Origin: Chthonomonas calidirosea
Lineage (GTDB): Bacteria; Armatimonadota; Chthonomonadetes; Chthonomonadales; CAJBBX01
Assembly: GCA_020722705.1 (NCBI GenBank)
Contig: DYKI01000003.1
Span: forward strand, 62,001 to 126,000
Reading direction: 5' to 3'
Length of the DNA: 64,000 nucleotides
Part shown: piece by piece, positions 15,388 to 28,530 of the stretch
How positions within the stretch are numbered: position 1 is the first letter of the stretch
Layout of the letters: every line of letters begins with the position of its first letter
The notes under the pieces: model-generated
What the model was told of the DNA's origin: nothing
Seen by the model: only the letters and a program-made list of their open reading frames with translations
The model's database searches: none
Position numbers and translations under genes: made by a program

Positions 15388-16252
15388 ACACATCCCAGCC
15401 CGATCCTCGCCGCCGGGGATTTCGGGCGCCAATGTTCGCATCGGCAAGCCCGATCACATACACAATGCCTATGGCTGCTATCAGGGCGGTACTCGTGGGT
15501 GTCAGCCCGATCGCCTCTCCTGCAAAGCCCAGAGGTGACCAGAGGAGCGCAACGATCAGAGCCAGGGTTACCAGCGCCAGGACCAGTCCTTTCGCGGTTT
15601 CACCATTATAGTATTGGCCGGCCCCCGGACATACCGCCGACAGCAGGACTGCCAGGTACGGGTTTTTCGGCTCAACGGCGAGGCTCATCGGGGAGGCCAT
15701 CCGATCCTGCATGAGGACGAGCTCGGCGTACTTGCGTTCGGCCGACCGTCGCGACGGGTCGGCCTCGCCCGAGCGACGATATGCGGCAACGGCATCGTCA
15801 ACGCGTCCCAGCGCCTGCAGAATGTCGCCGAGCATCTCCAGTGCAGCAGCATCGTGCGGACATCGGTCAATGGCGGCATGGCAGGCCTGAAACGCATCTT
15901 CGAAGCGACCGCGTCGCCTTGCGATGTGAGCCTCGCGAAGCAGCCGTTCCGCCTGTTCGACGTCGGCTGGGGAGGGCTCCCGAAATGGCGGAAAGGTCAG
16001 GGATGGGTGCGGCTCGAAGGGCTTGGGGGCGAGTGGAACGGTAACTTCCGGTTTCGCATCGGTCAGGATCGGTGTCGGGGAAGGCACCGAGGCAGTCTTC
16101 AGCAGCCTGGAGATCTCATCAGGCGGAATACCTCGATCGGCCAGAATGCGGGCCAAGGAGGCATCGTCCAGTGGTGCGCCGGACGCGCCGGCATGCTCCG
16201 CATCCGCGGCAGCGTGTGCGTTTGCCGGGGCATGCTCGTCGGAATCAGACAT
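15386..16252 (-). CDS. TPR-containing membrane protein, unknown function
   Basis: A 288-residue protein in three parts. There is an Ala/Glu/Pro-rich N-terminus (1-95) with the short helical motif DDASLARILADRGIPPDEIS, a TPR region (about 97-175; DAFQACHAAIDRCPHDAAAL and its repeat), and a C-terminal membrane part (about 195-275) beginning PGAGQYYNGETAKG. The PGxGQxYNG motif is common in small two- or three-helix membrane modules of unknown role. It overlaps the end of rsfS by eight bases and closes the minus-strand operon. No enzymatic motif is visible. Confidence 0.75.
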   Translation of the reverse strand: MSDSDEHAPANAHAAADAEHAGASGAPLDDASLARILADRGIPPDEISRLLKTASVPSPTPILTDAKPEVTVPLAPKPFEPHPSLTFPPFREPSPADVEQAERLLREAHIARRRGRFEDAFQACHAAIDRCPHDAAALEMLGDILQALGRVDDAVAAYRRSGEADPSRRSAERKYAELVLMQDRMASPMSLAVEPKNPYLAVLLSAVCPGAGQYYNGETAKGLVLALVTLALIVALLWSPLGFAGEAIGLTPTSTALIAAIGIVYVIGLADANIGARNPRRRGSGWDV

Positions 16253-16667
16253 GCGGTATGGACTCCGTGACCGCCTCGGTCGGGCTTCGCTTCACCCCGC
16301 GTTCAACCTCCGGTTCGCCCCCCCGGGCCGACAGGTCAAGGCGCGGCGCCTCGGCCCAGAACGCTTCGAGGTCGTAGTATTCCCGCTGATCCGGCGCCAT
16401 CACATGCGCGACCACATCCTGGTAGTCCATCAGCACCCACCGTGCGTGGTCGTAGCCTTCGATGCGGATGCCGCCTGCGCCCGCATGCTTCATCTGTTCA
16501 ACGATATGGTCTGTGATCGTTCGTATATGAACGGACGAAGTGCCCTCGCACACGAAGAAGTAGTCTGTCATCAGGGTAAGCCCGCGCAAATCCAGGAGCG
16601 TTGGGTTGCGCGCCTGCTTGGCATCGGCGGCTTCAACGATCAGGCGCACTTTTTCTTCGGATGTCAT
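16245..16667 (-). CDS. rsfS: Ribosomal silencing factor RsfS
   Basis: A 140-residue RsfS/Iojap protein. The conserved core covers residues about 1-110: VRLIVEAADAKQARNPTLLD, LMTDYFFVCEGTSSVHIRTI and the terminal DYQDVVAHVMAP-REYYDLE-W pattern. RsfS binds uL14 and blocks subunit joining in starvation. The last 30 residues are a basic, non-conserved tail. ATG at 16667 is chosen because the conserved domain starts there; AGGAGGT lies 13 bases upstream. Confidence 0.92.
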   Translation of the reverse strand: MTSEEKVRLIVEAADAKQARNPTLLDLRGLTLMTDYFFVCEGTSSVHIRTITDHIVEQMKHAGAGGIRIEGYDHARWVLMDYQDVVAHVMAPDQREYYDLEAFWAEAPRLDLSARGGEPEVERGVKRSPTEAVTESIPHV

Positions 16668-16732
16668 TGGGGTGACGACTACCTCCTGTGCCAGTTGGCC
16701 ACGCCATAGTATGAGGTTGGACGGCCGCAAAG

Positions 16733-17536
16733 TCAATCCGTCCTATCGGAAGTATCCGACGCGAACCACACCCGATGAACAGCACGGTAGCGATCATCGG
16801 AAATGCGCTCACGCGCGATCTCGCGGCCCCGAACAGTGTGTGTTCTGTAGGTGACGACTCTCCATCCGGCATGTGCAGCCGACTGCGGCTGCGATGTATG
16901 ACGAACAAGCGGCGACTGGGGTTCGACAACCACAATGCGCCGCGGCGCCTCGCGCTCGACGATGCGCGTCACGATTCCCACAGCGACCTTCGGCGGATGC
17001 TTTCCCATGAGCGCGACAGTCAGGTAATCCCGGGTGATGCGGCAGCGGATAGCGATGGGGTGCGGACCCGGATTGCGGAACCGGAGATCTAGGGTGTCGA
17101 AGGCGACGGCGGCATCTCGCCCCGGCGGCACATAGGTTGGAGCTACGGCGTGAGGGTGCCGTTCGACGATAGGCAGATCGGCAAGCAGCGCGGCGTTGTA
17201 GAGAGCGGTCGAAACTTGACAGACACCGCCGCCCACGGCGCGCACCAGAACGCCCTCGTTGCTGACTGGAGCCTTGCGATATCCTGCCTCCGCTGTCCAG
17301 TTCCCCACGCAGCGATTATAGGAGAATGTGCCGCCCGGCGGCACCTTTGCGCCATCCAACGCACGGGCGGCCAGGATCGCGTTATGCCGCTGTGATGCCG
17401 TCCTGCGGGCGAGGCTCGTCGTGAATGCCGCCAAGGTCCTATCGCGCTGAGGCTCCGGTCTGCGAAGGAGGAGCAGACCCATTGCCCCGATGCAGGCCGT
17501 GAACGCGACGAGGGCATAGCCCGATCGCGCCATCAT
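16733..17536 (-). CDS. VanW family protein
   Basis: A 267-residue protein with an N-terminal membrane anchor (about residues 6-24) and a VanW domain (about 60-190). It has the hallmark GGTFSYNRCVGNWTAEAGY, then GGGVCQVSTALYNAAL and ERHPHAVAPTYVPPGRDA. VanW proteins occur in vancomycin-resistance clusters and widely in cell-envelope loci, but their activity is not established. The ATG overlaps the alpha-2-macroglobulin stop by four bases (ATGA), tying it to that gene. No other van resistance genes are nearby. Confidence 0.88.
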   Translation of the reverse strand: MMARSGYALVAFTACIGAMGLLLLRRPEPQRDRTLAAFTTSLARRTASQRHNAILAARALDGAKVPPGGTFSYNRCVGNWTAEAGYRKAPVSNEGVLVRAVGGGVCQVSTALYNAALLADLPIVERHPHAVAPTYVPPGRDAAVAFDTLDLRFRNPGPHPIAIRCRITRDYLTVALMGKHPPKVAVGIVTRIVEREAPRRIVVVEPQSPLVRHTSQPQSAAHAGWRVVTYRTHTVRGREIARERISDDRYRAVHRVWFASDTSDRTD

Positions 17537-20500
17537 CGGACTGTTACCGCTTGAGCCGCGGTCTCCACACGCACATCCGGATTGTACATGCATTCGAGGC
17601 GAGCCGGGAGCGCCGTCGTCCGACCAGGCGCCTGAGTCCGCACGTAGTACTCCAGGATGTGCCTGCCAGGCGGCACCCGGCGTGCGAAGAACACGATCCT
17701 GTCGTCGCGCACATCTGTTGACGAGTACCATTCGCTCCATTCGGCATCTACATCGCCGCGAGCGCTGGGCTCCGCGCCGGCAGGAAGCGGGTCTGTCACC
17801 ATGACGTACGGCAGTTCCCTTTGTGTTTGGATGACGATACGCCGCCTGAGGACAGTCCTTGATGGTACGTAGCTTCCCATCGGTTTGTAATACCGGACGG
17901 CTCCCCGAAACGGGAGCCTGGCTTGAGATAGGACCTCGAAGCTACGAGTCAGCCTAACATAGGGGGCAGATGACAGCGGCCGATCCATGGCGCCTGCGGC
18001 CTGTGTGCGGACCATCAGCGAGTAGTAGGCATTGCCGCCGGAGATGGGCACGAGCTGCAGGGAGTTTGGCCCGCGCTGCAGCGGGATGCCCGTGAGGCGG
18101 AATATCTGCTCGCCCATCGCCCGCTCGGCGCTGAACGGACTCCGCCGAACATCCTTGCCATTGACGAGCAAGCGGAGTCCTCCGGAGCGCGCCATCTGGT
18201 CAGGGTGACGTTCGGCGTACGTGCAGATCGCTGCTACGACAAACGCGGTGTCGCGCGTGCATGCCCATGAGGCATCGGTTCGCCTCAGCATCATGTAGCG
18301 GATGGCGCGCTCGGCAATCTCCGTGTGTTGCGATGCCGTGATGAGCGCCCGGATCGCCAAGGACGTGGCTACGGTCCGATTCCATTCATACCCGGCGGGG
18401 TCTGTCCGCCCCGGCCACCAGGCGAGTGCGCCGTCACCTTTGACTTGCGCGAGGAGCCGGGTCATATAGCGTGCGAGACCTGGCGGCTCAGAGCGAAGCG
18501 TGTGGGAGCGAAGCGTGTGGGCATCGGACAGTCGAGACGCATGAAGACGGTGTGCCGCCATGATCGCGCAGGCCAATCCGGAAGCGCTCATGCGGTCGGG
18601 ATCCAGGCGGTGCAGCGCGTTGACGCCGGACTCTGCGAGAGCCAGCGCTGCGAATGCTCGGGCATCCTGATCGTGGGTCTGGTTGGATAGGCGAGCAAGA
18701 GCGGTTCGGGCTTGCTCCGCCATGCCTCTCGGCAGCGAGTAGCCTGACCGACGGGCGGCTGACACACCCATCAGGGCATAGGCCGTGAGCCACAGGTCGC
18801 CGGGATCGCTTTCGAACCACCCCCAGCTTCCATCCGGCTGCTGCATCTTGCGAAGGCGCGTGATGCCATTGCGTACGGCGTCGGCGAGCTCGCTGGCGAA
18901 ACGGGTGCCAAGGGCCGCCTTGAGCGACTGCGGCGAACCGGCCGGCAGTTGCTTGAGCGTGTTTGCGGCGAACAGGGCAGGATAGAACGCGCTCACGGTC
19001 TGTTCCACGCACCCGTACGGGAACGTTCTCAGGTACCGAAGCGCTTCCGGGATCGCTGCCAACGGACCTGGTGCAAGCCGCAATGTGATTGCAGCTCGGG
19101 CAGCGCCTTCGGGTGTGTCGAATCGGTGGATCGGGCCGGGGCCTATCCCAGTCTGACCCGCAAACACGTGCGTAACCTCGCGCGCGTTGGGCTTGATCTC
19201 AACCGGCAGCTCGATGGCGTCCGCCATTCGCGGGGCATCTGCCGTCCAGGCGTCGGCCCTGATGCGAGCCGTCCCGGGTCCTGCTGCGGTGGCAAACCAG
19301 CTTGCGATCGCGCTGCCGCGTGCCGGAACCTCGACCTGCTGTATCGGAGCGCCTTCAATCAGCAGGCCTTTCGCCGAAACCCTGACCGAGGCTAGACGCG
19401 GCACCATGCCCGCGTTGGCGACGCCTGCTGTCACACGGACACGATCCCTCTCTGTCAGGAACCTCGGCAGATCGAGCCGCACATGGAATGGCAACGTAGA
19501 GATCAGTTTGGCGGTGCCATAGCCGAACTGCGACCCTGACGTGTGGGCGATTGCCGTCACCCGCCATGTCGTGATATTGTCTGGGAGGCGGGCACGGATC
19601 CGGGCATTTCCCAGGTTGTCGGTCATCACGTGCGGCACCCAGGCGGGCGTATCCTCAAAACGCTTTCTGGCCACGATATTCGGGATGCCCTTGTCGCCGC
19701 TGTAGAGCCGCTCCTCACAGGAATGCCACGTGGTGACCATGCAGTACGTCTCTGGGTAGAACGTGTCCAGGATGGCCTCGGGATCATCCTCCATCAGGCT
19801 GTAGATCGCTTCGTCCACGACGGCTGCCGAGGCCTCGGCGCGCACGGGCTTTCCACGGTGATCTCTGATGTGGATGGCGACCTCTGCCGTCGTTCCTGGC
19901 CTGTACTGGCCTGAACCCGGGGCGACTTGGACATCGAGCTTGCGCGACGGTATGTCCACACGCAACACCGCAGTGGTTGACGCAAGGCGTTTCCGGAATA
20001 TGCAGGCGACATTCACTTCGACACGCGGCCCATAGGCTGAGCGCATGGGGACACGGACCACTGTGCTCCGAGACCTCAGGGGCACGGTCGTGATGTCGTA
20101 AAGCGTTTCTCCCTCGATGGTCAGGAGAGCCACCGCACCGACCCGGTTGGAGTTGATCAGCAATCGCGCGACATCGCCCTCCTCGTACCGCCGTCTGTCG
20201 GCATGAACGCTAAGGTCGCCGTACTCTGTGGCCACATCGCCGCCACGATCTGTCACACACCAAAGGTGCGTTTGAACGCTGACGCTCCGGCCCTGTGGAT
20301 CAACCGCCCGGACCTCCGCCTTGATCTCACCCGGTCTGCTTGCTGCGAACGCCAGCCGTGCTCGACCCATCGGATCGGTCTTGCCGGTGACTGAACCTAT
20401 CGGCGTGGACGTGATGCGAGAGCCGTTCGTCATCTGCCTGCTGAAAGCGAGCGTGATCGGAAGCGATGCAGCGGGTCTTCCCGACAGGTCGGTCGCTCTG

Positions 20501-22320
20501 ATGACAAATGCAGTGGGGCGGTTGGGGGCCATAACGTAGCCATCGGGCTGCAGGAACAAACGCAACGATCCCGGAAAGACACGCGTCTCGGCATCCACCT
20601 CAACCGACCTGCCGTTTGGATCAACCACCTCCACGTGGACAGTCATCCGATGGCCGTGGGCTGACTCCGGATTGCTGACCACATTGGAGGGCAAGCGGAG
20701 AGTTGCCCGACCATCTTGATCGAGATTGGCTGTGGCCGTGACATCAACAATGCCATAGTCCGGCGGCTCCATCCATTCGGGCGTCTCGGTTAGCTCTTCG
20801 TCCTCGTTGAGCCCCTCCCAGTCCCACAGGGGTGACCAGGAAGTCGAGTAGCGTACGGCTGCGCCGGCCAGAGGAGCGCCGTAGTAATAGGAGGCCTTGA
20901 TCTCAACCTCGACCGTTTCGCCCGCGACGTACGCTGCGCGCGCCGGCTGTGCGGTGACGCTGAACTCGGGTTTTCTGTAGGATGCCACGGTGAAGTCGTA
21001 GGCGTCCAGGTTGCCCGCAGCCTCAGCGAAGATCGTGCATGGGCCGCTTGGCGTCTCAGGGCTCAGAGTGAGACGACCGGAGAACGAACCGTAGCGATTG
21101 ACGATGAACGTCCGATCAGTGAGGATGACACCCTCGGGGTCTTCGGCGCGCAGCTTGATCGGCATTCCGGACGGTACCGAGTATGTAGGACCGGGACCTC
21201 TGCGCGTGCGCGCGATGCCCTTGAATCGGACCTCCTGTCCGGGTCTGTATACAGGCCTGTCCGTGTAGACGAACACCTTGGTGGACTCGGGCCTGGGCCA
21301 CGCGTCGTAGCCACAGGCGAACGCATAGCTGCCGCCCATCTGGGCCACAGCGCATGACCATTGGTCGTCCGGGTCTGTCGCCGGCAGTGAGGGCGCTCCG
21401 TCAAGACGTGCCAAACCCGTGCTGTCAGCGATGCTGCGGACAAGGGGGCGTCCTGACGAATACAGGGTTACCCTCGCGCCGGGCGTGGGCTCGCCGGTCT
21501 TCAAGTTGGCCACAAACCCGTGCGCACGCTGCCCGATCTTCTTCACGATGAGCGCGAGATCGGTTACCGCGATACCGAAATACGCCTGCGAGTCGCCATA
21601 GCGAGCAATGACACAGTAGAACCCCGCATTGAGCTTGCCAAGTGCCAGACGATGCTCGAAATGGCCTTCGACATCAGCGAGATTCGAGTTGACCGACACC
21701 GTACGGACAAGGGACGAATGCTGGGCAACTGCGCGGGGAACCTGGGCTGGCCGCGACCAGGTTCCAAAGACGTCTCGAAACGCCGTGAACCCTTCAGGTC
21801 GGCGCAGCAGATCAGGGATGTCCAGCCGGTACAGCTCGATGTACGGTCGTCCGGCATCGGGCTCGACATAGCCGCCAATAGTAATGTAGGCGGTTTCGCT
21901 CGGCAAGTAGGTGCCCGCTGTGGACGAACAGGTCAGCGGCTCAAGGGTTCGGTTGAGACGCAGCACAACGGGAGTGGCCGTCGCCTCATCAACTTCGATG
22001 CGAGGCACCGACAAGCCGTGGGCTGGCGAACTTGCAGTCAGGGTATATGCGCCGACAGGGACGGCATTCAGCTCGAAACTGCCGTCCGCGCCGGTCCGGG
22101 TCGAGCGCCTGTAGGAACCTTCCGTGTCGCCCATGGAACTGACCCAGATTGTCGCACCCGGCAGGGGCTGCAAGTCCTGGGTGTAGACACGGCCAATGAC
22201 TCTCCCGATGGGAGGTTCGGTAATGGCCGCCAACGCCATCAGCGCCGCGATCATGGCGATGCCGGCCGTCATGGCCAACCTTTCGGCCCAACGAACGTTA
22301 GGCCCAGAACCCGAATCCAT
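17533..22320 (-). CDS. Alpha-2-macroglobulin family protein
   Basis: A 1595-residue envelope protein. The order is an N-terminal membrane anchor or signal (about 14-34), then a carboxypeptidase-regulatory-like beta domain (RVYTQDLQPLPGATIWV). MG domains follow, with the MG2 hallmark FVYTDRPVYRPGQEVRFKG, then the bait-type central region. The thioester motif PYGCVEQ (Cys about 1104, coding bases 19009-19011) sits in an alpha-alpha toroid, and the receptor-type domain is C-terminal. Bacterial homologues trap proteases or act in envelope defence. There is no lipobox, unlike E. coli YfhM, and no PBP1C gene alongside. The ATG at 22320 follows AGGAG by eight bases and is preferred over a GTG at 22329. 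Confidence 0.9.
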   Translation of the reverse strand: MDSGSGPNVRWAERLAMTAGIAMIAALMALAAITEPPIGRVIGRVYTQDLQPLPGATIWVSSMGDTEGSYRRSTRTGADGSFELNAVPVGAYTLTASSPAHGLSVPRIEVDEATATPVVLRLNRTLEPLTCSSTAGTYLPSETAYITIGGYVEPDAGRPYIELYRLDIPDLLRRPEGFTAFRDVFGTWSRPAQVPRAVAQHSSLVRTVSVNSNLADVEGHFEHRLALGKLNAGFYCVIARYGDSQAYFGIAVTDLALIVKKIGQRAHGFVANLKTGEPTPGARVTLYSSGRPLVRSIADSTGLARLDGAPSLPATDPDDQWSCAVAQMGGSYAFACGYDAWPRPESTKVFVYTDRPVYRPGQEVRFKGIARTRRGPGPTYSVPSGMPIKLRAEDPEGVILTDRTFIVNRYGSFSGRLTLSPETPSGPCTIFAEAAGNLDAYDFTVASYRKPEFSVTAQPARAAYVAGETVEVEIKASYYYGAPLAGAAVRYSTSWSPLWDWEGLNEDEELTETPEWMEPPDYGIVDVTATANLDQDGRATLRLPSNVVSNPESAHGHRMTVHVEVVDPNGRSVEVDAETRVFPGSLRLFLQPDGYVMAPNRPTAFVIRATDLSGRPAASLPITLAFSRQMTNGSRITSTPIGSVTGKTDPMGRARLAFAASRPGEIKAEVRAVDPQGRSVSVQTHLWCVTDRGGDVATEYGDLSVHADRRRYEEGDVARLLINSNRVGAVALLTIEGETLYDITTVPLRSRSTVVRVPMRSAYGPRVEVNVACIFRKRLASTTAVLRVDIPSRKLDVQVAPGSGQYRPGTTAEVAIHIRDHRGKPVRAEASAAVVDEAIYSLMEDDPEAILDTFYPETYCMVTTWHSCEERLYSGDKGIPNIVARKRFEDTPAWVPHVMTDNLGNARIRARLPDNITTWRVTAIAHTSGSQFGYGTAKLISTLPFHVRLDLPRFLTERDRVRVTAGVANAGMVPRLASVRVSAKGLLIEGAPIQQVEVPARGSAIASWFATAAGPGTARIRADAWTADAPRMADAIELPVEIKPNAREVTHVFAGQTGIGPGPIHRFDTPEGAARAAITLRLAPGPLAAIPEALRYLRTFPYGCVEQTVSAFYPALFAANTLKQLPAGSPQSLKAALGTRFASELADAVRNGITRLRKMQQPDGSWGWFESDPGDLWLTAYALMGVSAARRSGYSLPRGMAEQARTALARLSNQTHDQDARAFAALALAESGVNALHRLDPDRMSASGLACAIMAAHRLHASRLSDAHTLRSHTLRSEPPGLARYMTRLLAQVKGDGALAWWPGRTDPAGYEWNRTVATSLAIRALITASQHTEIAERAIRYMMLRRTDASWACTRDTAFVVAAICTYAERHPDQMARSGGLRLLVNGKDVRRSPFSAERAMGEQIFRLTGIPLQRGPNSLQLVPISGGNAYYSLMVRTQAAGAMDRPLSSAPYVRLTRSFEVLSQARLPFRGAVRYYKPMGSYVPSRTVLRRRIVIQTQRELPYVMVTDPLPAGAEPSARGDVDAEWSEWYSSTDVRDDRIVFFARRVPPGRHILEYYVRTQAPGRTTALPARLECMYNPDVRVETAAQAVTVR

Positions 22321-22321
22321 G

Positions 22322-23818
22322 TCATCCACTCCTGCGAAACCGTGTCCGTGCGAACTCAGACGCTAAGGCAAGAGCAGCGGACGCACCCCCGATGAGCGCG
22401 ATCAGCCTTGCCCTGTCAAGGCGTGTCAGCTCGCTGTATGAGGCGCCGAACTCAGTGAACTGCAGGAGCGAGAAAATGCCCCCCACCGCAATCAGAACGA
22501 CTGTCATGGGCTCCAGCCCCTCGTCTGCAGCGCGGGCCCAGAGTACGGCGAGCCCAATGCCTACGATCAGCGGGAATACCGCCTTCGGTCCCCATATTCC
22601 GATGATCAGCGCCGGCCATAGCAGAGCCGCCAGCGCAGCGATAGGACCGCGCCATGTGGCCGAAGCGGCTGACCACCGTGCCAGCACGGATGGGACGAAG
22701 AGCCCGAGCAGAAACATGACGATCGCATAGTGATCCGACAGCGTGAACGGTCGGGTCAGCGACGAATAGCGCTCGATCGCAACGCGCGAGGCCGCTATTG
22801 CGAGGATCATGGCTGCAGGACCGAGAAACGCCTCACGTGTCCTCTCCGGCCGACCATCATCGGGCCTTGATGCGGCGACCAGAAGGCCGGCGTAGGCTGT
22901 CATGCCAATGCCGGTGACTGCTACGCCTAGCCCGGCCATGAGCTGGAACGCAGACAGAGCTGCGGCGGCGGCAACCAATGCGGCAATGGGGGCATATCCC
23001 ACGGACCTGCCACCTGTGGAGACCAATGCGCCAATCACCGATCCTGACAGGAGCCCAAGGATACTGCACCAGAACAGCCCTTCGGGGAACTGCGTGCCGG
23101 GAAGCGGTGCGGCCACGCGGAGAACAACCGCCCAGGCGGTGAGACCTACGCTCAGGGCGGCCAACGCTCCAGGCAGCGCCAGAGATGCGGTGGCGGCGTA
23201 CCTGGTGCACACGGCACCGATGAGAAGCGCCAACGGAACACTGCCGCCGATAGCGAGAGACGAGGCAGCCCAGAGACGCGCGTGAGCCGCTGTCGCTCCC
23301 CGGAACGCAGAGAGCGCACACGCAAGCGCGAGGAACCCGGCGAAAACTGTTGCCGTCGCAAACACTCCGGCGGCTGATCGCGTGTCGGCTCTGGGCTGCC
23401 GGAGACCGATAGCCTGTGCAACGGTAACCCATCCGAGCATCAGCCCCATGAGCGCGTCGAGACGTTGCGACCAGAGCGTGACGACAACGGTTGCGACCGG
23501 CGCTACACCTGCAGCCATTGCGGCGGCACAGGCCAGGATCGCGCGCGAGCGGTCTGTCGGGTCACGCACAACGGCCGCGGCATTGAGGGCCAGAACGGCG
23601 CCGACAGCGCCCAGAGCCACCCCCCACCCAAGACCTTGTCCGGCATGCCACGGAGCACGTTCCGGGAGCGCGACCACGAATCCGAGGGCAGCCAGAATCA
23701 GTCCGAGCGCGCTGGACCGCGCATTGAAGACAGCAGTGTCGGGCCTGAGGACGGCCACCACACCGGCACAAAGCAAGAGAGCAGCGACGCCTGCGGACCA
23801 AACCAGGGCGGTTTCCAT
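22322..23818 (-). CDS. Polytopic membrane protein, unknown function
   Basis: A 498-residue, very hydrophobic protein with roughly 14-16 membrane segments and short Arg/Asp-rich loops. No transporter or enzyme signature is apparent. A loop around residues 315-325 (RPDDGRPERTRE) and IERYSSLTRPFTLSDHYAI are the most distinctive soluble parts. ATG at 23818 follows GGGGGAA. Its stop lies within bases of the alpha-2-macroglobulin start, so the two are surely cotranscribed, with VanW next. That suggests an envelope role, but function is unknown. Confidence 0.75.
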   Translation of the reverse strand: METALVWSAGVAALLLCAGVVAVLRPDTAVFNARSSALGLILAALGFVVALPERAPWHAGQGLGWGVALGAVGAVLALNAAAVVRDPTDRSRAILACAAAMAAGVAPVATVVVTLWSQRLDALMGLMLGWVTVAQAIGLRQPRADTRSAAGVFATATVFAGFLALACALSAFRGATAAHARLWAASSLAIGGSVPLALLIGAVCTRYAATASLALPGALAALSVGLTAWAVVLRVAAPLPGTQFPEGLFWCSILGLLSGSVIGALVSTGGRSVGYAPIAALVAAAAALSAFQLMAGLGVAVTGIGMTAYAGLLVAASRPDDGRPERTREAFLGPAAMILAIAASRVAIERYSSLTRPFTLSDHYAIVMFLLGLFVPSVLARWSAASATWRGPIAALAALLWPALIIGIWGPKAVFPLIVGIGLAVLWARAADEGLEPMTVVLIAVGGIFSLLQFTEFGASYSELTRLDRARLIALIGGASAALALASEFARTRFRRSG

Positions 23819-23993: not shown

Positions 23994-25619
23994 ATGCATT
24001 TGAAACAACAACGCATCACTGACAATCTAGCTCAACTGCTGGAGGTCCTTCCGCCCGCTGTGCGGGATCCGCTGGAACGCCTGTCGTCACTTGACGATCT
24101 GCTGGAGATCGTGACCGACCTCGGTAGAGTGGCTGAGGCTCGGTTTCCCGGTCGAGTGGTTGAGCTCGGCACTACGCCTGTGGGCGAGTTTGAGCTTCAA
24201 TACGTCGTTGAGCGAATAGGGGAGTTCGGCAAGGACAACCGGGCCGGCATTGAGCGCACCCTGCACCGGATATCAGCCATCAGAAACCGAATGGGCAAGA
24301 TCGTGGGCCTGACGTGCAGGATCGGGCGCGCCGTCTACGGCACGATTGACATCATCCAGGATGTCGTGGAGAGCGGCAAGAGCATCCTCCTTCTGGGCAG
24401 ACCGGGCATGGGGAAGACCACCAAGCTCCGCGAGGTTGCGCGCGTTCTGTCGCTTGAGGCGCGCAAGAGGGTGGTCATCGTGGACACTTCCAATGAAATC
24501 GCCGGCGATGGCGACATACCGCATCCGGCGATCGGACGTGCACGACGGATGCAGGTGGCGGAGCCTGCCCTGCAGCACGCGGTGATGATCGAGGCGGTAG
24601 AGAATCACATGCCTGAAGTTGTCGTCATTGACGAGATCGGGGTCGAGGCGGAGGCCTTCGCTGCGCGGACGATCGCGGAGCGGGGAGTTCAGCTCATCGG
24701 CACCGCACATGGCAACAGCCTCGAGAACCTGCTGATGAATCCAACTCTAAGCGATCTGGTCGGCGGTATTCAGGCGGTGACCCTTTCGGACGATGAGGCG
24801 CGGCGTCGTGGCACACAGAAGACAGTGCTGGAGCGCAAGGCGCCTCCGACATTCGATGTTGTCATCGAGATCATGGATGTGGACAAGCTTGCCATACACC
24901 ACGAGGTTGGGGAGACCGTGGATCGCATGCTCCGCGGTCAGCGTGCCCGACCTGAGATACGCATCCGCAACGCCTACGGAGATATCGAGGTTCTTCAACG
25001 CGATGCCGGGTCACCTTCGGTCGGCGTGATGGCAGATGAACGCCTGCGCGATCGGGAACGCGAGGCCGGCCCCTTCGATACGATCGGGCGCGCCGAGGAT
25101 GCCGAAGAACCTCCTGCAGGCTCTCGCGATCGGCAGAAGTCCCTGCGCCATCCTCCGAGGACAATCCGCGTGTTCCCCTATGGCATCAACCGAAGCCGAC
25201 TGGACCGGGCCATACTTGACGGAGGTCACCCGGCCGTCGTGACACGGGACATTCAGGATGCCGATATCGTGATTGCCCTGAAATCGAGTTACCGTCGAGA
25301 GCCCCCCAAGATGCGCGAGGGCGCGGCCCGGAAACTTCCCACGTACGTGGTGAAGAGCAACACGTACTCTCAGATCGCCACGGCCATGCGCGATGCGTTC
25401 CAGTCTGACGTGTTCGAGAAGGGCGACACGCAGGACGCGCTTCGTGAGGCCGAGGAGGGGGCGCGTCGTGCGAAGGAGACGGGCGAGCCTGTCGAGCTTC
25501 GCCCTCAGAACTCCTATGTGCGCCGGCTGCAGCACCAGATCGTCGAGCGCGAGGACTTGCTTTCTGAGAGCGTGGGGACCGAACCCCGACGCCGCGTTCG
25601 TATCCTGTCCAACGCATGA
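23994..25619 (+). CDS. R3H domain AAA ATPase (Ycf45/SpoIIIAA-like)
   Basis: A 541-residue cytoplasmic protein. It has an N-terminal helical region and then a SpoIIIAA/Ycf45-type ATPase core with Walker [10 protein letters not shown] (about 135-143) and Walker B VVVIDEIG (about 206). The arginine-containing [12 protein letters not shown] segment follows. The C-terminal part has a linker, a DNA/RNA-binding-like region ([19 protein letters not shown]) and a final R3H domain (about 480-541). Homologues in cyanobacteria and plastids (Ycf45) and spore formers are poorly characterised. The stop overlaps tmk (ATGA). A nucleic-acid-linked ATPase role is inference from R3H. Confidence 0.85.
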
Positions 25620-26710: not shown

Positions 26711-27082
26711 GTGATCTCGCTAGCCCTCGACTACGATGCAGATACCGACTGGCTGGGCATCTCGTTCGGCAGGCATGACGGGCTGACCCGCGAGTTCGCC
26801 CTGAATGACCACATAACGATTGTCACCGATGTGACGTTGAGCAAGGTGGTAAGCCTGGCCTTCAGCGAGTATGTCAGGATGCTCCTTGTCAGCGAGACAG
26901 AGTTCACGAACTTGCGCGACGAGGATCCCGAAGTAGTCCAGGATCTGCTGCACCTGCTGTCGGTCCCTCCCGCATCACGGCTGCTCGATCTGACAGATCC
27001 GGAGATGCTGATTGCGAGAGTGTGCGCCCCGCCGCTGGACACGATCATGGATGACAGCGGAGACTACAATCCGCCATGGTAG
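26711..27082 (+). CDS. Unknown protein, weakly DUF2283-like
   Basis: A 123-residue acidic protein. The first half (residues 4-55) has the DYDADTDWLGISFG ... DHITIVTD pattern loosely resembling DUF2283 proteins, which are short beta proteins often beside toxin or regulatory genes. The second half is helical and unrecognised. GTG follows GGAGGA at eight bases. It overlaps dacB by seven bases and follows darA by 42, so it is part of the tmk-darA-dacB unit. Function is not known. Confidence 0.65.
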   Translation: MISLALDYDADTDWLGISFGRHDGLTREFALNDHITIVTDVTLSKVVSLAFSEYVRMLLVSETEFTNLRDEDPEVVQDLLHLLSVPPASRLLDLTDPEMLIARVCAPPLDTIMDDSGDYNPPW

Positions 27083-28530
27083 GTCTCGCGCGCTCAAGCT
27101 CGCGGCTCGTCTGGTGTTGGATTCTACTGGCGTGCACGATCCGCGCTTCTGCTGCCGATGGGCGTCCGGCGCTTCTGGCCGAGATTGAGGATGCGCTCGC
27201 GGCCCCTGCGATACGCGGCGGCGTTCAGAGCATCCTCATCCAGTCCCTTGCCACGAATGAGATGTGGTACGAGCGCAATGGCGGCTTGCTGATGATGCCC
27301 GCATCGAACCAGAAGCTGCTCACTTCCGCCGCTGCTCTCCATCTCCTTGGTCCCGAGTTCCGATTCGAGACGGCTGTCCTGGCCGCGTCGAAGCCGAACA
27401 GCTCCGGTCTGGTCACCGGCGATATCGTCGTCAAGGGCAGCGGCGATCCGTTTCTGGACGACGCTGCAATCAAGGGACTGGCAAAGGCCATGCGCGCCAA
27501 CGGGGTCCGGGCCATCAGCGGCGGCGTGATCGGCGATGGCAGCGCGTTCACCGACGCGGGGTACGGCGACGGTTGGGCCTGGGACGACATGACGTACTAC
27601 TACTCCGTGCCGGTGAGCGGTCTCAACGTCAACTCAAACGTGATACGCGTGCGCGCTCTGCCCGGCAAGAGAGTTGGTGACCCTGCCGTTCTGGTCGTGA
27701 CGCCGACCGATCGGTACGCCGAGGTGAGGTCGAAGGTGACCACCGCCGCAAAGGGGGTTCGGCCCAGACTGACGGTTTACCGGCGGCTGGGTCTCGACGT
27801 GGTGGACGTAACGGGGCATGTAGCCGTCGGCACCAAGGCTGACGGAGCGCCATCGGCATCGGTTTCTGTCCAGAACCCGCCGCTCTATGCTGCGATGAGA
27901 CTTGCCGAGGTACTCCGCGCTTCCGGCGTCTCCGTGGCAAGGGCTCCCAGGGTCGGCATCGCCGGCCATCAGCATCGGATCGTGCTTGCGAAGCACACGA
28001 GCCCGCCGCTCTCCGAGATGATCGTGCGACTGAACAAGCCGAGTGACAACCTGGCGGCCGAGTGCCTTCTGCGGGCCATCGGCTTGGCGAAATCGGGTAC
28101 GGGATCGGTCGCTGCGGGTCGTAAGGCCGTTTTCGAATGGTTCACCTCAATAGGAATGGACACCGGCTCACTCATCATGATGGACGGTTCAGGTCTGTCC
28201 AGACAGGATTACGTGACCGGACGGAACCTTCTGGCGCTTCTTCACCACATGCACGGGCATCGGCATGCGAACGCATTCCAGGCGTCACTGCCGATTGCCG
28301 GTGTGGACGGAACCCTCAGGAACCGGATGAAGGGAACCCCGGCCGCCGGCAACTGCCGCGCGAAAACGGGCTACGTGTCCAATGTGAGCTCATTGAGCGG
28401 CTACGTCACAACCGCAACCGGCGAGCCGCTTGTCTTCGTGATCCTGATGAACAACCATCCATGCAGAAATGCGGAGGCGACGGCGGTTCAGGATCGCATC
28501 GTGAAGGCGCTCGCGTCGTATCGTGACTAG
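27076..28530 (+). CDS. dacB: D-alanyl-D-alanine carboxypeptidase/endopeptidase (PBP4)
   Basis: A 484-residue penicillin-binding protein with a signal peptide (about 1-27, ending ASA). All three serine-peptidase motifs are present: S77-N-Q-K80, SDN (KPSDNLAAE) and KTG (CRAKTGYVSN). The large insert between motifs one and two is typical of class C PBP4/DacB. It acts outside the membrane on peptidoglycan stem peptides. It overlaps the preceding gene. Convergent nadA ends 23 bases away. Confidence 0.93.
   Translation: MVGLARSSSRLVWCWILLACTIRASAADGRPALLAEIEDALAAPAIRGGVQSILIQSLATNEMWYERNGGLLMMPASNQKLLTSAAALHLLGPEFRFETAVLAASKPNSSGLVTGDIVVKGSGDPFLDDAAIKGLAKAMRANGVRAISGGVIGDGSAFTDAGYGDGWAWDDMTYYYSVPVSGLNVNSNVIRVRALPGKRVGDPAVLVVTPTDRYAEVRSKVTTAAKGVRPRLTVYRRLGLDVVDVTGHVAVGTKADGAPSASVSVQNPPLYAAMRLAEVLRASGVSVARAPRVGIAGHQHRIVLAKHTSPPLSEMIVRLNKPSDNLAAECLLRAIGLAKSGTGSVAAGRKAVFEWFTSIGMDTGSLIMMDGSGLSRQDYVTGRNLLALLHHMHGHRHANAFQASLPIAGVDGTLRNRMKGTPAAGNCRAKTGYVSNVSSLSGYVTTATGEPLVFVILMNNHPCRNAEATAVQDRIVKALASYRD

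Follow-up and report, generated by a model that had tools for sequence, protein, structure and literature searches.

A conserved Armatimonadota operon encodes an alpha-2-macroglobulin, a VanW-family protein and a membrane protein with a very probable pyrophosphatase fold

The three genes and their products

We analysed a stretch of 64,000 nucleotides from Chthonomonas calidirosea (contig DYKI01000003.1, positions 62,001 to 126,000; hereafter the window), in which three genes on the minus strand code, in this order, for a polytopic membrane protein, an alpha-2-macroglobulin (A2M) and a VanW-family protein (Table 1). The three genes are translationally coupled. An earlier note, made from the sequence letters, had proposed three overlapping open reading frames (ORFs) at these places, and all three were found there with their overlaps. 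The first junction depends on the start codon of the A2M gene, as the GTG at 22329 gives an 8-nt overlap with the stop codon of the polytopic gene and the ATG at 22320 leaves a gap of 1 nt. At the other end of the unit, a longer VanW ORF that begins at 17740 is an in-frame extension of the VanW frame.

The A2M is the only protein of the genome with a PF00207 match. The Pfam domains bMG10, MG2, A2M, A2M_BRD (the bait region), TED and bMG5 score over their cut-offs, and bMG3 falls just under its own (34.3 versus 34.9 bits). The N-terminus carries a hydrophobic segment, either an anchor or a signal. The CxEQ thioester motif is present as PYGCVEQT; its residues C1107, E1109 and Q1110 are invariant in an 11-member alignment, and 40 of the 43 A2Ms that have the polytopic family encoded upstream retain the thioester Cys. 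By its domain set and CxEQ motif, the protein is thus classified from its sequence as a bacterial type I alpha-2-macroglobulin, with a putative capacity for covalent protease capture.

The VanW protein harbours an N-terminal hydrophobic anchor. Its Cys106 is found in 56 of 56 aligned rows and its His129 in 55 (52 of the rows are distinct, and the exception is a truncated contig), and these residues are the candidate catalytic pair. The activity of VanW proteins was identified in 2024, when two of them from Clostridioides difficile were described as LD-transpeptidases that form cross-links and have a Cys-His-small-residue triad (excerpts of the 2025 review PMC12729407; the same two enzymes are reported in excerpts of PMC11986978). 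The window VanW is therefore probably an LD-transpeptidase, as far as sequence conservation can tell. The genome has two VanW genes and no YkuD match, so that VanW is its sole recognised LD-transpeptidase family. Known bacterial A2Ms often pair with PBP1C, and the earlier note had remarked that this partner is absent. This holds genome-wide, since a search for the BiPBP_C domain, positive in controls that included Escherichia coli and Caulobacter, gave no match in the genome. Of 101 genomes, one has the domain over cut-off and four have it at E up to 0.001. As the VanW family includes LD-transpeptidases, this A2M has a probable wall-enzyme partner from a family other than PBP1C. VanW could thus stand in here for the PBP1C found next to the E. 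coli A2M.

Table 1. Features of the operon and its downstream neighbour (positions in the window)
Feature	Position	Strand	Details
Polytopic membrane protein, predicted membrane pyrophosphatase fold without pyrophosphate site (pseudo-pyrophosphatase)	22322..23818	-	498 aa; AlphaFold model, fold and profile-profile comparison
A2M, bacterial alpha-2-macroglobulin	17533..22329	-	1598 aa from GTG 22329; alternative start ATG 22320; Pfam domains
VanW-family protein, probable LD-transpeptidase	16733..17536	-	267 aa; PF04294, E 3.5e-45
Thioester motif YGCVEQ of A2M (Cys1107, Gln1110)	19000..19017	-	11-member alignment; column across 59 loci
Codon of putative catalytic Cys106 of VanW (GGGVCQ)	17219..17221	-	Alignment conservation
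Codon of putative catalytic His129 of VanW (RHPH)	17150..17152	-	Alignment conservation
Coupling junction polytopic/A2M	22318..22329	-	TGA 22324-22322 between GTG 22329 and ATG 22320
Coupling junction A2M/VanW	17533..17536	-	ATGA, VanW ATG 17536 over A2M stop
rsfS (ribosome silencing factor), overlaps VanW	16245..16736	-	Pfam RsfS; start TTG 16736; outside the conserved unit

Conservation and linkage of the genes

We surveyed the linkage from both ends. A2M matches were found in 83 of 101 genomes, the window's own included. From 56 of these 83 genomes we took 59 A2M loci, among them the window locus and three deliberate second copies. A locus was considered testable with at least 1 kb upstream of the A2M gene for the polytopic gene, or at least 500 nt downstream for VanW. 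The polytopic family is encoded directly upstream of A2M at 41 of 52 testable loci, and VanW directly downstream at 39 of 55. At the 49 loci with both flanks testable, 32 have both partners, six the polytopic gene only, one VanW only and ten neither. For the converse survey, a profile built from 28 polytopic family members (profile A1) gave matches in 112 of 291 searched genomes of the phylum, mostly one per genome. We took 60 loci from part of these 112 genomes, mostly outside the A2M set; 59 contain the polytopic ORF, and 54 have at least 500 nt downstream. A2M is the next gene on the same strand at 47 of these 54 loci, and VanW follows A2M at 39 of the 40 loci where this was testable. At one locus (L253:1-3436, minus strand of the locus), the order is rearranged to A2M-VanW-polytopic, and the genes still overlap. 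In two members of the polytopic family, those at L269 and L271, the open frame is far longer than in the others (766 and 837 codons).

Of 38 polytopic-to-A2M junctions, 22 allow a start-stop overlap of -4, as do 19 of 25 A2M-to-VanW junctions. Because such overlaps recur at many junctions, the coupling is more than chance. Identity to the window's protein is 19-34% among the aligned polytopic proteins and, for A2M, 30-47% among ten aligned sequences. The operon, its conservation, and the family assignments of A2M and VanW are firm. Thus, the proposal that the trio forms a conserved, coupled unit of genes for envelope proteins was borne out, and linkage in relatives, on which it depended, is kept.

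The pair A2M-VanW also occurs without the polytopic gene next to it. Among the best 80 A2M loci, a partial sample in which 77 gave a recognised A2M ORF, the polytopic gene lies beside A2M in 11, all titled Armatimonadota or subgroups (Chthonomonas, Chthonomonadaceae, Abditibacterium, Fimbriimonadaceae, Armatimonadetes/Armatimonadota). Seven other loci of this sample have A2M-VanW without an adjoining polytopic gene: L114, L117 and L149 of Bacillota, L121 of Omnitrophota, L134 and L151 of Obscuribacter/Obscuribacterales, and L113 of Armatimonadetes. An eighth, L108 (Armatimonadetes), also has A2M-VanW and is cut off upstream. In five of the seven, a protein with an AMMECR1 domain (PF01871), probably exported, is encoded directly upstream of A2M (L113:484-1317, L121:6772-7359, L134:176-859, L149:7053-7862 and L151:7326-7931); L117 has a different gene there, and the sequence of L114 ends upstream. 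AMMECR1 genes also lie directly upstream of A2M in L112, L119, L136 and L159, across several phyla. No open-licence paper came up in a search for AMMECR1 together with macroglobulin. In L113 and L134, a relative of the polytopic protein is encoded 2-3 kb beyond VanW (hhalign, 98.1% and 69.4%), and a polytopic protein of L151 resembles the family weakly (6.7%). A search for the polytopic protein in ten genomes, reached via named loci and mostly of other phyla, gave one weak fragment. Since the copies in L113 and L134, which a local hidden Markov model (HMM) detects, escaped this search, its negatives are no evidence.

As to the surroundings of the window operon, VanW is followed by rsfS and then by a gene for a TPR protein, likewise overlapping. 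We recognised rsfS and the TPR gene next to the trio in L047, L048 and the window only, and the remaining outer flanks vary between loci. On the other side, a divergent neighbour (23994-25619) codes for a protein with a SpoIIIAA-like ATPase, a PTPase-named domain and an R3H domain, as annotated by Pfam. A D-Ala-D-Ala carboxypeptidase (Peptidase_S13, PF02113) is encoded near the operon, at 27076-28530; enzymes of this kind produce tetrapeptide donors for LD-transpeptidases (excerpts of PMC11986978).

The polytopic protein as a very probable remote homologue of membrane pyrophosphatases

Neither Pfam nor NCBIfam has a family that matches the window polytopic protein, and the 28 members of its family have no match to the membrane pyrophosphatase (mPPase) family PF03030 at E up to 1. 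The description of a protein of no recognisable family and an undescribed partner therefore stands as far as Pfam and NCBIfam models go. At the level of the fold it does not, as the protein very probably has an mPPase fold and remote homology to mPPases.

An AlphaFold2 model was calculated from eleven sequences, that of the window and ten from the named loci. Its mean predicted local distance difference test score (pLDDT) is 77 and its predicted template modelling score (pTM) 0.84. It has 15 helices, in keeping with the count of about 15 in the earlier note. Two of them are 42 residues long and probably double in the model, which would give 17 membrane passes. A Foldseek search of the PDB with this model returned membrane pyrophosphatases for all of its first 28 matches (E 7.8e-7 to 8.8e-3). 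VIA-align superposed it on the Thermotoga maritima Na+-PPase with a Z score of 36.8 and a root-mean-square deviation (rmsd) of 3.1 over 455 residues. We considered whether the protein could be a transporter of another type and rejected this, as the best fold other than mPPase reaches Z 7.0, which is the background level.

Profile-profile comparisons point the same way. An alignment of 95 polytopic sequences was compared using hhalign with one of 30 Armatimonadota mPPases. The global comparison gave 99.5% at E 8.3e-22 and the local one 98.5% at E 3.8e-15, with a score of 126; the 28 family members gave 96.1% against the mPPase alignment. In the local controls, reversed profiles scored 17.1 and 18.5, six single mPPases 41.6-67.1, and 27 of 28 other polytopic proteins at most 21.3. 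These 28 controls are what was left of 137 polytopic ORFs once 107 family members (by HMM) and two mPPases had been removed. The exception among them, L134:8575 with 43.0, is itself a probable relative of the family. The L151 protein was removed from the controls with a family HMM E of 5e-4 only; alone, it scores 28.5 against the family. An otopetrin profile match to the polytopic protein was weak (E 0.026 over 93 profile positions) and was not used, and no relative of the fold turned up in the viral library at E 0.001 or better.

Some results speak against this assignment. On its own, the window sequence reaches a score of 25.5 (1.4%) with the mPPase alignment, so that the match needs the deep family profile, and the L113 and L134 relatives taken singly give 1.2% and 0.3%. 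No mPPase came up when PDB sequences were searched by HMM with either the window protein or profile A1. A second model was calculated for a Fimbriimonadales member and is of poor quality (pLDDT 61.5, pTM 0.60). Foldseek ranked an mPPase first for it, at an E of 0.029 only and with unrelated folds intermixed; VIA-align gave Z 27.0 for an mPPase (376 residues, rmsd 3.6), with the fold ranked next at 7.3. Both models were built from one set of 11 sequences and are therefore not independent.

The protein lacks the catalytic features of mPPases. There are 52 D, E, K, R or N positions kept in at least 29 of the 30 mPPases; in the global alignment, the window protein lacks 31 of them and differs at 18 of the remaining 21. 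The segments deleted in the profile alignment include DVGADLVGK, DNVGDNVGD, SDNANGIFEMSG and GDTVGDPLKDT, and with them the pyrophosphate (PPi)-binding motifs DVGADLVGK, DNVGDNVGD and DTVGDPxKDT. The helix-6 acids D256, E259 and E262 of the L285 mPPase, which we take to include the ion gate, align to Ala, Thr and Ala. On the basis of these deleted or changed positions we reject an active pyrophosphatase, and as the catalytic segments are deleted, we file the protein as an mPPase-fold homologue and not as an mPPase. Two canonical mPPases are encoded elsewhere in the same genome. A match to a well-known transporter family, which the earlier note had named as a finding that would tell against its proposal, is thus found by descent and not by function. 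According to the model, the protein retains the 16-helix mPPase core, with one extra C-terminal helix.

What is kept lies mostly towards the predicted periplasmic side. The half-helices assigned to this side are better conserved than the cytoplasmic ones (1.08 versus 0.64 bits), a difference reached by four of 131072 helix-direction assignments. The best-kept polar residues among the 95 sequences are Arg345 (89), Arg466 (87), Tyr364 (77) and His363 (65); position 412 is Lys in 58 and Arg in 18, and position 469 is Lys in 54 or Arg in 33. In the model, Arg345, His363-Tyr364, Lys412, Arg466 and Arg/Lys469 are all placed at predicted periplasmic ends. Loop charges tend to positive-inside, leaving out loop 0, whose value is inflated by untrimmed N-termini. 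The case for a conserved periplasmic face is weakened by the origin of the topology, which was taken over from mPPases (N-terminus outside, the two 42-residue helices split by hand, an extra C-terminal helix added). Furthermore, the 40 best-kept positions include G129, P376 and a Trp at 264, all deeper than mid-membrane, as well as G70 near the membrane middle and Arg493 at a predicted cytoplasmic end.

A possible envelope-maintenance module and its relation to known systems

We propose that the three proteins act as one inner-membrane envelope-maintenance module, a reading to which we give slightly less than even odds (about 45%) and in which the complex itself is conjectural. All three proteins would reside at the inner membrane, and two of them, A2M and VanW, would face the periplasm. 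An intruding protease would cut the bait region of A2M and be captured via the thioester, while VanW would re-cross-link the peptidoglycan at the capture site by 3-3 bonds, with no requirement for PBP1C or a classical transpeptidase. The polytopic protein would serve as a membrane platform. With its basic periplasmic face it would either hold the other two proteins or bind an anionic wall ligand, and it would help localise or control both partners. The module would be the Armatimonadota counterpart of A2M-PBP1C, with a different cross-linker and an added membrane subunit. In favour of this reading are the linkage counted from both ends, the gene overlaps that recur among differing outer flanks, the fold and profile homology of the polytopic protein with its deleted catalytic segments and conserved periplasmic side, the Cys and His of VanW, and the lack of BiPBP_C and YkuD matches in the genome.

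Several observations weigh against this proposal. The polytopic gene is missing upstream of A2M at 11 of 52 testable loci, and VanW downstream at 16 of 55. The ten loci with neither partner are the three second copies, four of genus g23, and L081, L087 and L097; in two of the genomes of these last three loci (G039 and G066), the polytopic gene lies elsewhere, at L263 and L264. Six of the 54 testable polytopic loci are unlinked to A2M (L263, L264 and L268-L271). In five of these six genomes an A2M of nearly full length is encoded elsewhere, and G212, the sixth, which is 68% complete, has a fragment; the polytopic protein can therefore be encoded apart from A2M. The A2Ms of L068, L069 and L080 have lost the thioester Cys and retained their polytopic and VanW neighbours. 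Because these natural thioester-free versions keep both neighbours, covalent trapping is not the whole function. In addition, some VanW proteins have no LD-transpeptidase activity (excerpts of PMC12729407). The g23 A2Ms (L091, L092, L094 and L095) form a separate lineage without the polytopic protein or VanW, with TatC upstream in both loci tested (L092 and L095).

Three other accounts compete for the job of the polytopic protein. It might, with a rather low probability, act outside the working module, as a biogenesis factor that only aids the export, folding or maturation of A2M, for instance by protecting or forming the thioester. Its position directly before A2M with overlapping starts would fit such a role, as would the AMMECR1 or DUF1175 proteins encoded at the same position in other A2M clusters; the unlinked copies do not fit, nor does its persistence beside A2Ms that lack the thioester Cys.

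Somewhat less probable still, the retained mPPase core could conduct ions or change shape, such that the membrane potential drives the periplasmic partners. Tol, Exb and Mot proteins drive their partners in this way. As one might expect of an energy coupler, the protein retains the membrane-spanning core of an ion pump without the fuel site and has charged residues conserved on one side. However, the helix-6 acids, which by our assignment probably include the ion gate, are replaced, and the charged residues kept in at least 60% of members include no acid.

An equally doubtful account is that the pyrophosphate fold was repurposed for a lipid-linked pyrophosphate at the opposite face of the membrane. 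A basic periplasmic pocket would bind undecaprenyl (pyro)phosphate or lipid II and supply or recycle wall precursor near VanW. The basic residues at the predicted periplasmic ends (Arg345, Arg466, Lys412 and Arg/Lys469), together with His363, and the operon shared with a probable wall enzyme speak for it. In contrast, the Asp-rich metal-binding segments are deleted, and LD-transpeptidases work on polymerised wall and require no lipid carrier.

That the genes are ordinary neighbours without a common function, kept together because overlapping gene orders can survive by descent, is very improbable: some polytopic copies are indeed unlinked, but the two-way counts already disfavour this, and the linkage holds at low identity, with differing flanks and through the order change in L253, while A2M-VanW recurs in Bacillota, Omnitrophota and Obscuribacter(ales) loci. 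PADLOC has no family for any of the three proteins at E up to 0.01, which rules out an anti-phage system known to this resource.

The more far-reaching idea that the mPPase superfamily has a second branch, which lost the cytoplasmic fuel site and was rebuilt for the periplasmic side, is speculative, and we hold it unlikely as a whole. Its members would be subunits of an A2M/LD-transpeptidase complex and transmit membrane energy or a wall ligand, making protease capture and wall repair one coupled event.

What is new here are the identities, namely the mPPase fold of the polytopic protein and VanW as a member of a family that includes LD-transpeptidases. Literature searches for A2M with VanW, Armatimonadetes or pyrophosphatase, and for inactive mPPase homologues, found nothing on the system among open-licence papers. 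The link between bacterial A2Ms and wall repair was drawn from their PBP1C neighbour. Finding a probable wall cross-linker from a different family next to A2M, across another phylum, provides an independent case for that idea and renders it testable. In the polytopic protein, the mPPase fold would also gain a relative that lacks the pyrophosphatase machinery, and a dead relative reveals which parts of the fold are worth retaining without fuel. According to excerpts of a 2022 review, no known ion pump is homologous to mPPases (PMC9408878), and the function of their outer helix ring is described as largely unknown in excerpts of PMC10897367.

Compared with mPPases (PF03030) such as the T. maritima Na+-PPase, the polytopic family shares the predicted fold over 455 of 498 residues and profile-profile homology. 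It differs in that it has lost the PPi-site segments and the helix-6 acids, has an extra C-terminal helix, is unrecognised by PF03030 and is shorter (mostly about 445-690 residues versus 736-884 in the 30 mPPases). The C. difficile enzymes LdtCd4 and LdtCd5 resemble the window VanW in having a VanW domain with Cys and His and an N-terminal membrane anchor (excerpts of PMC12729407). In contrast to them, the window protein has no peptidoglycan-binding domain by Pfam at E up to 1 (only a sub-threshold G5), is the operon partner of an A2M, and has a putative activity. Other A2M clusters, with DUF1175 or AMMECR1, have a partner gene directly upstream of A2M as the trio does; theirs codes for a small, probably exported protein and that of the trio for a polytopic one. 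The closest parallel is with the E. coli-type A2M (ECAM) and PBP1C, which have the same A2M domain set, the CxEQ thioester and a gene beside a wall enzyme, and for which a protease trap plus wall repair was proposed (excerpts of PMC3328433). In the trio, the probable wall enzyme is VanW, BiPBP_C is absent from the genome, and a membrane protein with a very probable mPPase fold is added.

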